DNA of 37,185 nucleotides from Clostridia bacterium (GTDB lineage: Bacteria; Bacillota; Clostridia; Christensenellales; Borkfalkiaceae), in contig JAJPXK010000089.1 in assembly GCA_021205485.1 (NCBI GenBank), positions 1-37,185 on the forward strand, given 5' to 3'. The position numbers and the translations under genes are program-made. The notes under the pieces were generated by a model. It did no database searches. It was not told where the DNA came from and saw nothing but the letters and a program-made list of their open reading frames with translations. Shown piece by piece: positions 22,245 through 35,234 of the stretch (its first letter is position 1; each line of letters opens with the position of its first letter).

Positions 22245-22493
22245 ATGAACGATATAATAAGATCGGTAAACGGACTGCCGCTTATCGTAAAGCTGTTGCT
22301 GTGCATACCGTGCATAGAGATTGTTTACGGCGTATGCCGCGTAATAAACGGAGCCGCTAAAAACGATGTGTTATGGATAATCCTCGGCATACTCACTATA
22401 ATCCCCGGGGCGTGTTTTATGTGGATAATTGACCTTGTCTGGATACTCTGCAAAGGGCACGCATTTCTGTTAGGTGAGACATATTTAGGGTAA
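22245..22493 (+). CDS. Small two-TM membrane protein (paralog 1)
   Basis: 82 aa hydrophobic; SD aaggag; 3' half strongly similar to 22603-22851. Confidence 0.75.
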   Translation: MNDIIRSVNGLPLIVKLLLCIPCIEIVYGVCRVINGAAKNDVLWIILGILTIIPGACFMWIIDLVWILCKGHAFLLGETYLG

Positions 22494-28298: not shown

Positions 28299-30122
28299 AT
28301 GTCAGAGAAAAAGAAAAAAACAAAAACAAAACGCTCGAGCATAGGCGGGCAGGCGGTGCTCGAAGGGGTTATGATGATGGGGTCAACCTGTATGGCTACG
28401 GCCGTACGCGACCCCGAAGGCGAAATCCAGGTAGAGGCCAGACGCATCAACAGGTCGCCTAAAACGGCGAAGGCCTGCAAAATCCCCTTTGTAAGAGGAA
28501 TCGTAAACATGTTCGGCAGCCTTGTAAGGGGCACGGGCGCTCTTATGCGTTCGGCCGAGGTTTACGGCGACGAAGAGGAGGCGGGCAACCTTGAAAAAGT
28601 GCTCGCGGAAAAATTCAAAATAAATCTTATGAGCGTGGTCAGCGTCGTGTCCGTCTGTTTAGGCGTCGCGCTGGCCGTGGCCCTGTTCCTTGTTTTGCCT
28701 AACCTTATCGTAAGCGGGCTTAAATCGCTTTTCCCTTCCCTTACGGGCTCTGTATGGGAATATATAATTTTAGGCGTCATCAAACTTGTCATATACTTTG
28801 CGTACCTCGGAATTATCCTTTTATTAAAGGATATCCGCAGGCTGTATATGTACCACGGCGCCGAACACAAGACCATTACCTGCTACGAAAAGGGGCTTGA
28901 GCTTACCCCCGAAAACGCGAGGGGCTGTTCCCGTCTGCATTCCCGCTGCGGAACGTCCTTCCTGTTTATCGTGCTCGCGATAAACATTTTAATAATTTCG
29001 CTTGTAAACTGGGGCCTCGGCGTGGCTGAAATAGAGAGCAATCTTCTGCAGTTTCTTGCGAAATTAGGTATAGAGATTGTGCTGTTGCCTGTAATTACAG
29101 GCGTCTCTTACGAGATTTTAAAATTTTTGGCAAAGTTTGACAACTGGTTTGTAAATATCTTCAAGGCCCCCGGTTACTTTATGCAGAAGGTGTTCACCAC
29201 AAGGGAACCTACCGACGATATGCTTGAAGTCGCCATCGCGGCGTTCAAAAAGGCGCTTGAGATGGACGCCGACCCCGACATGGAGGAGACGGAGTTTGTC
29301 ACGGGCGGAATGCTTACGCAAAAACTCAAGGCCACAAAGGAAAAATTTGCGAAAAAGGACATAGACGAAAGCGACGCCGAGTGGATTTACTCGCTCGTTC
29401 TCGATATACCCCGCAGCGAACTGACCTCTGAACGGATCATATCCCCCGCCGAAGTCAAGGCTGTAAAAGAGATTGTGGATAAACGGCTTACGGGCAGGCC
29501 GCTGTGGTATATAATAGGCGACGTAGACTTCTGCGGCTGTAAAATAAAGGTGGACGAGAGGGTGCTTATTCCCCGCCCCGAAACCGAACAGCTCGCCGAT
29601 ATCGCCATAAAGACGGTGGAAGAGGGCGACAAAGTGCTTGATATGTGCACGGGAAGCGGCTGCATAGCCATAGCTATGGCCAAGGGCTGCGCCGGCAAGC
29701 ACATTTCGGTCACCGCGGCGGACGTGTCTGACGCGGCTCTGATGGTCGCCAGGCAAAACGCTGTTGATAACGAGGCTGTGGTACACTTTGTACAGTCAGA
29801 CTTGTTTGACGGCGTCCGCGGCAGGTTCAACGTAATAGTGTGCAATCCCCCGTATATAAAAAGTTCGGATATCCATACGCTGCAGAAAGAGGTGAGGGAC
29901 TACGAGCCCCGCATAGCCCTTGACGGCGGCGACGACGGGCTGGATATTTACAGGAGCATAGCCAAGGTTATAAACAGGTATATCGCCCGCGGAGGCATGC
30001 TTATACTTGAATGCGGTGAGGGCCAGGCGGACGAGATTTTAAAGATATTCTCCCGCCGCGACTACGCGATGGTGATAAAGGACCTCTACGGCGTAGACAG
30101 GTTTTTGAAGATAGCATTTTAA
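28299..30122 (+). CDS. prmC: DUF1385 membrane protein fused to peptide chain release factor N5-glutamine methyltransferase (PrmC)
   Basis: N-terminal DUF1385 (IGGQAVLEGVMMMG; MYHGAEHKTITCYEKG; RLHSRCGTSFLFIV) and C-terminal PrmC (LIPRPETEQLAD; VLDMCTGSGCIAIAMA; VIVCNPPYI) in one uninterrupted 607-aa ORF. Confidence 0.93.
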   Translation: MSEKKKKTKTKRSSIGGQAVLEGVMMMGSTCMATAVRDPEGEIQVEARRINRSPKTAKACKIPFVRGIVNMFGSLVRGTGALMRSAEVYGDEEEAGNLEKVLAEKFKINLMSVVSVVSVCLGVALAVALFLVLPNLIVSGLKSLFPSLTGSVWEYIILGVIKLVIYFAYLGIILLLKDIRRLYMYHGAEHKTITCYEKGLELTPENARGCSRLHSRCGTSFLFIVLAINILIISLVNWGLGVAEIESNLLQFLAKLGIEIVLLPVITGVSYEILKFLAKFDNWFVNIFKAPGYFMQKVFTTREPTDDMLEVAIAAFKKALEMDADPDMEETEFVTGGMLTQKLKATKEKFAKKDIDESDAEWIYSLVLDIPRSELTSERIISPAEVKAVKEIVDKRLTGRPLWYIIGDVDFCGCKIKVDERVLIPRPETEQLADIAIKTVEEGDKVLDMCTGSGCIAIAMAKGCAGKHISVTAADVSDAALMVARQNAVDNEAVVHFVQSDLFDGVRGRFNVIVCNPPYIKSSDIHTLQKEVRDYEPRIALDGGDDGLDIYRSIAKVINRYIARGGMLILECGEGQADEILKIFSRRDYAMVIKDLYGVDRFLKIAF

Positions 30123-31666: not shown

Positions 31667-32029
31667 TTATTGTTTTTCTAAAAACTCTATAATTTTGTTA
31701 TAAGTTTCTTCAGACAGAATGTGTTCCATTTCGCAGGCGTCGGCGTCGGCGTTTTCCTCCGATACTCCAAGCTTTTTCAAAAATTTTTTAAGCGTGCAGT
31801 GGCGCGCGTAAATTTCTTCCGCGTATTTTTTCCCGCTTTCGGTAAGGTAGATGTGCATGCCTTCAGACGTGATATACCCCTGCGCGGCCAAAAGTTTTAC
31901 CGCCTTTTGCACGGCGGGCTGAGATACGTTTACCGCCCTCGCAACGTCTATTTTATGTACAAACTCCTGCTTTTGCGATAAAATCAGTATAGTTTCAAGA
32001 TAATCTTCTGTCGATTGGTTGTGTTTCAT
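31667..32029 (-). CDS. DtxR/MntR-family metal-dependent regulator
   Basis: MKHNQSTEDYLETILILSQKQEFVHKIDVARAVNVSQPAVQKAVKLLAAQGYITSEGMHIYLTESGKKYAEEIYARH; start refined to ATG 32029 because the 32047 ATG lies within the promoter. Confidence 0.9.
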   Translation of the reverse strand: MKHNQSTEDYLETILILSQKQEFVHKIDVARAVNVSQPAVQKAVKLLAAQGYITSEGMHIYLTESGKKYAEEIYARHCTLKKFLKKLGVSEENADADACEMEHILSEETYNKIIEFLEKQ

Positions 32030-32038
32030 AGTATTTTT

Positions 32039-32067
32039 ATTATACATTAATTTATCTTAAATGTCAA
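32039..32067 (-). promoter_or_regulatory. Promoter of the DtxR-like gene
   Basis: Minus strand TTGACA (32067-32062), 17 bp, TATAAT (32044-32039); ATG 9 nt further. Confidence 0.85.
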
Positions 32068-32160
32068 CCCCCGTTTTTTTGCAATAAATTTATGCAAATT
32101 TGTGTAAAAATGATAGGCTTTAACATTACTGAAATTTTTTTAACTTAGGCTTATTTTTAG

Positions 32161-32189
32161 TTGACAAATTAAACGTCGGTTAATATGAT
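32161..32189 (+). promoter_or_regulatory. feo operon promoter
   Basis: TTGACA (32161-32166), 17 bp, TATGAT (32184-32189). Confidence 0.8.
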
Positions 32190-32195
32190 ATACTT

Positions 32196-32296
32196 GTAAA
32201 AGCTGAACTGAGGTTAATTTTTGTAAGGTAAATTTAGCCTCGGCGGCGGCAGAGGGAAACAAAAAACCTTACCCCTCTGTATAAACGGAGAAAAAT
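32196..32296 (+). ncRNA. Structured 5' leader of feoA with potential kissing-loop interaction
   Basis: Hairpin 1 GAGGTTAA/TTAGCCTC (32210-32241) and hairpin 2 CAGAGGG/CCCTCTG (32250-32279); loops contain GTAAGGT (32223-32229) and ACCTTAC (32266-32272). Confidence 0.5.
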
Positions 32297-32518
32297 ATGC
32301 CTTTGGCAATAGCGCCTACCGACGTAGAGGTAGAGGTAAAAAGAATTTCGGCTGACGAAAAGGTAAAAAAGCACCTTCAGGAAATAGGAATTATCGCAGG
32401 CTCGCGACTTACGGTAATATCCTCTGACGGAGGCAACGTAATCTTAGTGGTAAAGGAAGGCAGGCTTTGCCTTGACAGAGTGCTTGCCTCTAAAATTACG
32501 GTGGCTATCGCCGCCTGA
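32297..32518 (+). CDS. feoA: FeoA family protein
   Basis: SH3-like FeoA pattern (LQEIGIIAGSRLTVISSDGGNVILVVKEGRLCLDRVLASKI); precedes second feoA and feoB. Confidence 0.85.
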   Translation: MPLAIAPTDVEVEVKRISADEKVKKHLQEIGIIAGSRLTVISSDGGNVILVVKEGRLCLDRVLASKITVAIAA

Positions 32519-32521
32519 TGC

Positions 32522-32648
32522 GGAAATATCCCTTGAGGATAAATTAGTATACTCAGTAGAAAGTATCCTGAAGGGGGTGAGGTGTTTTCGGATAATATTA
32601 CACCTCATCAGTCACTTGCGTGACAGCTTCCCCTCAAGGGGAAGCCTG
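32522..32648. repeat. Palindromic dispersed repeat between the two feoA genes
   Basis: cccttgagga...agtatactcagtagaaagtatcctgaagggggtgaggtg...cacctcatcagtcacttgcgtgacagcttcccctcaaggggaagcc. Confidence 0.85.
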
Positions 32649-32694
32649 AACTTTTTATCTAAAAAAGTAAAAAAATTAAAGGAGAATATAGATA

Positions 32695-32928
32695 ATGAGC
32701 AATCTGCTTTGCGATTTTACCGTAGGACAAAGCGGTAAAATCAAAGCCGTGCTTGGCGAGGGACGCATAAGAAGGCGTCTCTTCGATATGGGCGTAACCC
32801 CCGGGGCTGAAGTTACCATGGTAAAAAAAGCTCCCTTAGGCGACCCTATCGAAGTAACCATCCGCGGGTACCAGCTTACGCTCCGCAAGGACGAGGCTAA
32901 GTGTGTAGAAATGGAGGCGGTTAAATGA
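32695..32928 (+). CDS. feoA: FeoA family protein
   Basis: IRRRLFDMGVTPGAEVTMVKKAPLGDPIEVTIRGYQLTLRKDEAKCVEME. Confidence 0.92.
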   Translation: MSNLLCDFTVGQSGKIKAVLGEGRIRRRLFDMGVTPGAEVTMVKKAPLGDPIEVTIRGYQLTLRKDEAKCVEMEAVK

Positions 32929-35234
32929 GAACTTTCGCTTTGGCGGGCAACCCTAACTGCGGCAAGACGACGCTGTTTAACGCCCTCACGGGTTCCACCG
33001 CGCACGTAGGCAACTGGCCTGGCGTCACGGTAGATAAAAAGGAAGGCGTATACAAAGGCGGCTCCGAAAAGGTGAACATAGTTGACCTTCCCGGCATCTA
33101 TTCGCTTTCGCCGTACACCCCCGAAGAGGTAATCGCCCGTAACTTTATTTTAGACGAAGCCCCCGACGGCATAATAAACATTGTAGACGCCACCAACTTA
33201 GAGCGTAACCTTTATCTTACCACACAGCTTTTAGAGATGGACGTTCCCGTAATCATCGCCCTCAACATGATGGACGAAGTGGAAAAGAAGGGCGACAAGA
33301 TAGACGTAAAAGAGCTTGAGGATAAGATAGGCGTACCCGTTGTATCCATATGCGCTTTAAAGAACAATGGTATAAAGGAACTTATGGAAAGGGCGGTCAG
33401 CATGCCCGAAACCCGCAAGGGCAAGACCATAGTGCAGGGCAATATTTCGGGCGCGATAGAAAAGGCCGAAAGCTTTTACGCCGCCAAGGAAGTTACCTCG
33501 CCTACATTCCACGCTATGAAGCTGCTCGAAAACGACGAGCTTGAAGTGGATAAAAAGGAAAACGCCAATCTTTTGGCTGAAATTTCGGCAGAATACGGCG
33601 AGGACTTAGAGGCAGTCATAGCCGACGAGAGATATAAATACATATCGGCGCACTTTACAGTCGCTAAAAAGAAGAGTACAGACAAAGCCGTACTTACCAA
33701 GTCCGACAAGATTGACAAGGTGCTTACGCATAAAATATGGTCTATTCCTATATTCCTTGTAATATTGTTCGCGATATTCCACCTTACATTCTCAGAAAAT
33801 CTGTTGTATTTAAACGGTTTCGGCGACGGCTGGATGCTCTCGCTTGAAGATTTAGGCATAGAAGGCGGCCTCGCGACGTTTGTAGGCATCTTCTATGACG
33901 GTACCGTTTACTCGCCGGGCGTAATACTGTTCAACGTTATGGACGTTATTACATCGCTTATAGGCGACGGGTTATCGCTTGCGTTAGAATCGGCCCCCGA
34001 TTGGGCCAACGGCCTTGTGGTAGACGCCGTGTGGGGCGGTATCGCGGCCGTGCTCAGCTTTGTGCCTCAGATACTCGTTCTGTTCGCGTTCTTCTCTATT
34101 TTGGAAGATACGGGCTACATGGCGAGGGTTGCGTTTATACTTGACAGAATTTTCCGCAGGTTCGGGCTTTCGGGCAGGGCGTTCATGCCTATGATTATGG
34201 GCTTCGGCTGCAGCATACCCGCTATGATAAACACCCGTACGCTCGCAGACGATAAAGAGAGAACGGCGACGATAAGGGTAATACCTTTCTTCAGTTGCGG
34301 CGCAAAACTCCCTATACTTACCGCAGTTGCGGGAACATTATGCGGAAGCGCATATCTTGATACGGCTATATCTATAGGCATGGGGGCTGAAACCCTTACA
34401 TACCTTATGTACCTTGTAGGCATAATTGTGGCCATTGTTGCGGTAATATTTATGCGCAACACCTCGATGAAGGGAGCTACGCCCCCATTTATTATGGAAT
34501 TGCCCGCATACCACGCCCCCGGGTTCAAAAATCTGTGCCTGCACGTATGGGATAAATTAAAGCACTACGTCAAAAAGGCGTTCACGATTATATTCGTATC
34601 CACGGTTATAATCTGGTTCCTTTCTTCCTTCGATTGGTCATGGACCTGGACGGACGACATCGGCTCGAGCATACTCGGCAGCATCGGCAAACTTATCCAG
34701 CCTATATTTACCCCTCTCGGCTTTGGCTCACAGCTCGGCAAGGAGGCAGGCTGGGTATTCGCGGTCGCAGCCATTACGGGACTTATCGCAAAGGAAAACG
34801 TTATCGCGACATTCGGCGCCTTGGCCGTCGCTGTGGGGAAAGCCGTTGAAGGCATCGAGTCTGAAGACGGCATAGAGGAAGTCGCAACGATGATAAACGC
34901 CATAAGGGAGAGCAATCCCGGCCTCACAGATTTGCAGATAGTGGCCGCTATGATATCGTTCATAGTATTCAATATGACGACAATCCCCTGCTTCGCGGCC
35001 TGCGCTACGGCGAGGGCGGAGCTTCCTAAGGGCAAGTTCAAGTGGACGGTGCTGTTCTGGCTTGCAACAAGCTACATAGCGTCCTGCGTAATCTACACTT
35101 CGATAGCGTGGGCTTGGTGCATACCTATCTGGCTTGTTTTGTTCGCGGGAATAGGCGTGTTGATATACTTCAACAACAAGGGCAAGCTTGAAAAAGTTAA
35201 GTTCTGGAAAAATTTAAAGAAGAATAAGGCTTAA
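32925..35234 (+). CDS. feoB: Ferrous iron transport protein B
   Basis: G domain ALAGNPNCGKTTLFNALTGSTAHVGNWPGVTVDKKEG; membrane domain GFGCSIPAMINTRTL. Confidence 0.97.
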   Translation: MRTFALAGNPNCGKTTLFNALTGSTAHVGNWPGVTVDKKEGVYKGGSEKVNIVDLPGIYSLSPYTPEEVIARNFILDEAPDGIINIVDATNLERNLYLTTQLLEMDVPVIIALNMMDEVEKKGDKIDVKELEDKIGVPVVSICALKNNGIKELMERAVSMPETRKGKTIVQGNISGAIEKAESFYAAKEVTSPTFHAMKLLENDELEVDKKENANLLAEISAEYGEDLEAVIADERYKYISAHFTVAKKKSTDKAVLTKSDKIDKVLTHKIWSIPIFLVILFAIFHLTFSENLLYLNGFGDGWMLSLEDLGIEGGLATFVGIFYDGTVYSPGVILFNVMDVITSLIGDGLSLALESAPDWANGLVVDAVWGGIAAVLSFVPQILVLFAFFSILEDTGYMARVAFILDRIFRRFGLSGRAFMPMIMGFGCSIPAMINTRTLADDKERTATIRVIPFFSCGAKLPILTAVAGTLCGSAYLDTAISIGMGAETLTYLMYLVGIIVAIVAVIFMRNTSMKGATPPFIMELPAYHAPGFKNLCLHVWDKLKHYVKKAFTIIFVSTVIIWFLSSFDWSWTWTDDIGSSILGSIGKLIQPIFTPLGFGSQLGKEAGWVFAVAAITGLIAKENVIATFGALAVAVGKAVEGIESEDGIEEVATMINAIRESNPGLTDLQIVAAMISFIVFNMTTIPCFAACATARAELPKGKFKWTVLFWLATSYIASCVIYTSIAWAWCIPIWLVLFAGIGVLIYFNNKGKLEKVKFWKNLKKNKA

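Follow-up and report, generated by a model that had tools for sequence, protein, structure and literature searches.

The leader of the feoA1-feoA2-feoB mRNA in this Clostridia bacterium probably contains a real, previously uncatalogued RNA element. Comparison of three sister species shows, at the level of sequence, that two adjacent hairpins have been kept by selection and that the loop of each carries an invariant 7-mer, the complement of the one in the other loop. Here, the leader is described from the window (the whole 37,185-nt stretch of DNA that was analyzed; its genome is designated G000), together with its counterparts in the sister species G068 and G069, the candidate repressor operator that it overlaps, and its possible roles.

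The feoA locus and its leader

The features of the locus are listed in Table 1. The leader is followed by feoA1 (start codon ATG at 32297), feoA2, and feoB, in that order, which form an Fe2+ importer operon, and a metal-dependent repressor gene of the DtxR family lies divergent to it; a protein search gave only one match in the whole genome. This gene is preceded by its own perfect promoter (TTGACA-17-TATAAT, 32067 to 32039, − strand), and with translation from MKHNQS (32029), as in one relative (G002), its mRNA would be nearly leaderless. Between feoA1 and feoA2 (32597 to 32650) there is a short interspersed repeat with a palindromic end, CAGCTTCCCCTCAAGGGGAAG, which resembles REP/MITE-type elements and has nine more matches in the same genome, several in G036, and a single weak one each in G010 and G054. 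Elsewhere in the window, a single 607-amino-acid open reading frame (28299 to 30122) resembles, as read from its sequence only, a fusion of a DUF1385-type membrane protein and a PrmC-type methyltransferase.

Table 1. Positions in the window of the feoA leader elements, candidate operator boxes, and neighboring genes
Feature	Position	Strand	Details
DtxR/IdeR/MntR-family metal-dependent repressor gene	31667–32047	−	Pfam PF01325 and PF02742; divergent from feoA
Candidate DtxR-type box 1, TTAACTTAGGCTTA	32140–32153		13.2 bits, genus motif; upstream of −35
feoA promoter, TTGACA-17-TATGAT	32161–32189	+	11/12 consensus match
Candidate DtxR-type box, TAAACGTCGGTTAA	32170–32183		12.6 bits; in promoter spacer between −35 and −10
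Hairpin 1	32202–32247	+	MFE in all three species; 14 pairs
Hairpin 1, P0: GCTG/CGGC	32202–32205/32244–32247	+
Candidate DtxR-type box, TGAACTGAGGTTAA	32204–32217		14.8 bits; just downstream of −10
Hairpin 1, P1: CTGAGGTTAA/TTAGCCTCGG	32208–32217/32234–32243	+
Loop 7-mer 1, GTAAGGT	32223–32229	+	Invariant in three species
Hairpin 2	32249–32280	+	GCAGAGGG (32249–32256)/CCCTCTGT (32273–32280)
Loop 7-mer 2, ACCTTAC	32266–32272	+	Invariant in three species
Shine-Dalgarno sequence, ACGGAG	32285–32290	+	Left open by fold
feoA1	32297–32518	+	PF04023
feoA2	32695–32928	+	PF04023
feoB	32925–35234	+	PF02421, PF07670, PF07664

RNA energies were calculated with ViennaRNA for pseudoknot-free structures, and the transcription start site was predicted. 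An earlier note on this DNA had described two hairpins whose 16-nt loops contain complementary 7-mers, placed between the promoter and the feoA Shine-Dalgarno sequence; its coordinates are correct to the base and its placement is confirmed. The core stem that it gave for hairpin 1 (GAGGTTAA, 32210 to 32217, with TTAGCCTC, 32234 to 32241; 16-nt loop) stands, but the hairpin is longer than described once P0 and P1 are counted together. The core of hairpin 2 is CAGAGGG (32250 to 32256) paired with CCCTCTG (32273 to 32279), again with a 16-nt loop. GTAAGGT and ACCTTAC are perfect reverse complements; GTAAGGT is unpaired in the MFE structure and mostly unpaired in the ensemble, and the two complementary loops are both predicted to be mostly unpaired. 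Hairpin 1 starts about 6 nt past the predicted 5′ end of the transcript.

Taken from a single sequence alone, the two-hairpin observation is weak evidence. The folding z-score of the G000 leader (−2.3) is only mildly unusual, and when the sequence was scanned for neighboring hairpins of 7 bp whose loops hold complementary 7-mers, the chance expectation, estimated on this window only, was 0.1 per strand-window. The same scan found one other such pair on the + strand (22328 to 22395) and one on the − strand, both likely due to chance. It is the comparative evidence across species that makes the leader element more than a chance arrangement.

Comparison of sister species and null tests

The earlier note had proposed co-conservation of the loop 7-mers in related leaders as a check, and the 7-mers are indeed kept in G068 and G069, but the element is missing from the other 74 of the 77 feoA1 leaders collected from the genus. 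FeoA1 is 96 and 97% identical in G068 and G069, respectively, and 81% identical in the next relative. Four-fold degenerate sites in feoA1 differ at 46 to 49% (about 48%) among the three species, so unconstrained sequence has been well turned over; ACCTTACC is kept in a segment whose surroundings have largely changed.

In each of the three leaders, the MFE structure is made up of these two hairpins, and their loops hold the 7-mers. Standard pairs occupy 62 of the 64 stem pair cells in this comparison of three leaders of shared ancestry, on which tests are not fully independent, and P1 has one mispair each in G068 and G069. The covariation that had been suggested as a second check is found in both stems, with two-sided changes (order, G000/G069/G068) at P0.2 (CG/CG/UA) and P1.4 (AU/UG/CG) in hairpin 1 and at P2.3 (AU/GC/GC) and P2.5 (AU/CG/CG) in hairpin 2. 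Hairpin 2 has 8, 6, and 8 pairs, and the 7-mers are 36, 38, and 35 nt apart, in G000, G069, and G068, respectively; the variable spacing suits an RNA and not a phased DNA site. Loop sizes range from 16 to 23 nt, with a 7-bp complement, and in all three species the end of hairpin 2 is 15 to 17 nt from the ATG and the Shine-Dalgarno sequence is 76 to 100% unpaired in the ensemble. Hairpin 2 of G068 contains a run of nine C residues just after ACCTTA (L179, − strand, near 1494 to 1502), possibly a length-variable tract.

Complementary-loop hairpins are thus kept together in homologous leaders of three species, the pattern by which a kissing loop would be recognized, and to that extent the earlier note's proposal of two hairpins with complementary loops in the feoA leader is borne out, with selection acting on them as RNA. 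The loop 7-mers are identical in all three species and give zero covariation for the kissing pairs; because they never vary, we infer the loop pairing itself. The loops would kiss through a 7-bp helix that stacks on the 3′ strand of hairpin 2, an arrangement that the position of ACCTTAC allows, since it lies directly 5′ of the hairpin 2 3′ arm in two species (it is 6 nt away in G068).

Two nulls were applied to the architecture. When everything between and after the 7-mers was shuffled, with the operator and the 7-mers kept, both hairpins with comparable stems and looped-out 7-mers arose in a fraction of 0.0005 to 0.006 of shuffles for G000 and G069 and 0.0005 to 0.036 for G068. When G000 was mutated at random at 20 of its 45 free arm positions, about the number that separates it from G069, the architecture survived in about 0.003 (0.3%). 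That the likeness of the three leaders is residual homology without function is therefore very improbable: the single-sequence expectation given above and the restriction to three sister lineages speak for it, but the nulls rarely reproduce the architecture, the stem changes are compensatory, and ACCTTACC is conserved amid turned-over sequence.

A covariance model (R1) trained on G000 and G068 recovers G069 with a score of 56.6 bits (E value, 1.4e-11). Over 93 genus genomes it found nothing else above noise, and over 396 genomes of the order nothing credible; the extra matches in the genus and order genomes were at noise level (E, 0.007 to 0.09 per genome). No Rfam 15 family matched in the window at its gathering score, and only chance-level matches appeared there, or in the sister leaders, at an E value of ≤10. 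Longer genus leaders were searched for the same architecture with other loop sequences, and none had a loop-loop match of more than 3 nt except for a 6-nt A/T match in an unrelated 309-nt leader. A match to GGTTAATTTTTGTAAGGT on a viral contig lies inside a phage-like open reading frame, without the second 7-mer, and was judged to be due to chance. In a limited literature search, mostly at the level of titles and abstracts, no feoA leader RNA or intramolecular kissing leader of this kind was found.

The loops may instead be targets of a partner in trans (a small RNA, an RNA-binding protein, or a second leader copy by loop-loop dimerization), with no kiss in cis. Invariant loop 7-mers on changing stems are typical of recognition loops, but trans recognition does not require that two invariant loops be exact complements of each other, and GTAAGGT-N20-50-ACCTTAC, in a search for both 7-mers together, has a single occurrence per genome in the three species, at feoA only. 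We regard such a partner as unlikely.

Candidate operator boxes and probable iron control

The palindrome TTAACY-NN-RGTTAA is present in 74 of the 77 genus feoA leaders, with at least two copies in 68 (expectation, 0.03 per shuffled leader); three boxes are found in relatives such as G002, G030, and G061. The locus has both features of a DtxR-regulated promoter, a divergent gene of the DtxR family and palindromic boxes conserved at the promoter, and the association of boxes with the divergent gene is genus-wide. Iron control of the operon is therefore most simply transcriptional, and the divergent DtxR-type repressor, by its position, probably supplies the iron response by acting on the candidate boxes.

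The right half of the box at 32204 to 32217 is GAGGTTAA, the 5′ arm of hairpin 1, so that this arm is conserved for a DNA reason. That half of a DtxR-type operator found across the genus forms this arm had escaped the earlier note. The overlap lends something to the idea that the whole feature acts at the DNA level only, as an extended operator or the site of another regulator with incidental RNA folding, and inverted 7-mers could serve as protein half-sites. The 7-mers were accordingly scored as extra repressor boxes and rejected, as their windows score only −4 to −14 bits, far under the box motif. With the 3-nt variation in spacing between the 7-mers and the covariation of the stem arms also against it, we consider a purely DNA-level feature improbable.

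Possible roles of the leader RNA

The switch to a nested GTAAGGT/ACCTTAC stem that the earlier note envisaged is disfavored. Such a stem would disrupt both hairpins, leaving the hairpin 2 3′ arm free to cover the Shine-Dalgarno sequence. CTCTGT can pair with ACGGAG in this genome, but G069 lacks that pairing and G068 has only a weak form of it, and the nested form is less stable than the two hairpins by 7.1, 9.5, and 5.8 kcal/mol in G000, G069, and G068, respectively. Since the nested stem is costly and Shine-Dalgarno capture is possible only in G000, the proposed switch is not a conserved function, and we give it hardly any credence.

A metal-sensing riboswitch would have Fe2+ or Mn2+ stabilize the kissing complex and alter access to the nearby Shine-Dalgarno sequence. 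The leader sits before an Fe2+ importer, its loop residues are invariant, and kissing loops in general bind divalent ions. Nevertheless, there is no conserved expression platform (the Shine-Dalgarno sequence is open in the MFE structure, its capture is restricted to one species, and the leader has no terminator), the distribution is very narrow, and no known metal riboswitch in Rfam matches, so that we hold this explanation to be unlikely. In its specific form, a very small metal-responsive RNA whose Fe2+- or Mn2+-stabilized kissing complex adjusts translation where DtxR controls the promoter and the operator half-site also serves as an aptamer arm, it is likewise unlikely. The NiCo (czcD) riboswitch, which is reported to respond to Fe2+ and Co2+ and forms a four-helix junction with conserved junction residues, likewise occupies a 5′ untranslated region with a metal-related gene downstream, but the feoA leader lacks an Rfam match even at the permissive E value; the earlier note was right to set the two apart.

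The most economical reading is a 5′ module that stabilizes the mRNA and sets its translation. We think there is about an even chance that the element is a lineage-specific, nonswitching kissing-hairpin module of the 5′ untranslated region, which sets stability or translation of the feoA1-feoA2-feoB mRNA. A DtxR-type repressor on two or three promoter boxes would give the iron response; once transcription had begun, a rigid kissing pair would form in the nascent RNA only a few nucleotides from its predicted start, where it would shield the mRNA 5′ end and keep the leader off the Shine-Dalgarno sequence. The module would thereby raise or fix mRNA half-life and translation efficiency, with no switching of its own. 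As the operator half-site fixes the sequence of the hairpin 1 5′ arm, the 3′ arm would have followed that arm in evolution. Against a module of this kind, the feo operon works without the element elsewhere in the genus (74 leaders).

Stem-loops at the 5′ terminus stabilize mRNAs with leaders of the ompA and ermC type. The feoA leader resembles these in having structure a few nucleotides from the predicted 5′ end and an open Shine-Dalgarno sequence, and differs in the complementarity of its loops and in the overlap of a hairpin arm with a repressor operator. With the L2-L3 kissing loops of purine riboswitches, RNAI/RNAII, and TAR/TAR*, it would share two hairpins locked by loop-loop pairing; unlike them, it has no visible three-way junction or ligand pocket and has 16- to 23-nt loops with a 7-bp complement, and it would act in cis on one short leader. 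DtxR/IdeR-controlled feo promoters similarly have a divergent DtxR-family gene and palindromic boxes at the feoA promoter, but the candidate box here reads TTAACY-NN-RGTTAA, and three species have the RNA element as an additional layer.

In one small clade of an uncultured genus of gut Clostridia, which appears to have gained it, the element forms a structured, uncatalogued leader on the operon for an Fe2+ importer. If it does sense metal, it would rank as unusually small for a riboswitch of that kind. The half-site of a protein operator and a stem of the RNA occupy the same bases, and the leader may thus offer a compact case of an RNA layer added atop repressor control, in which the operator constrains one helix arm and the other arm follows.
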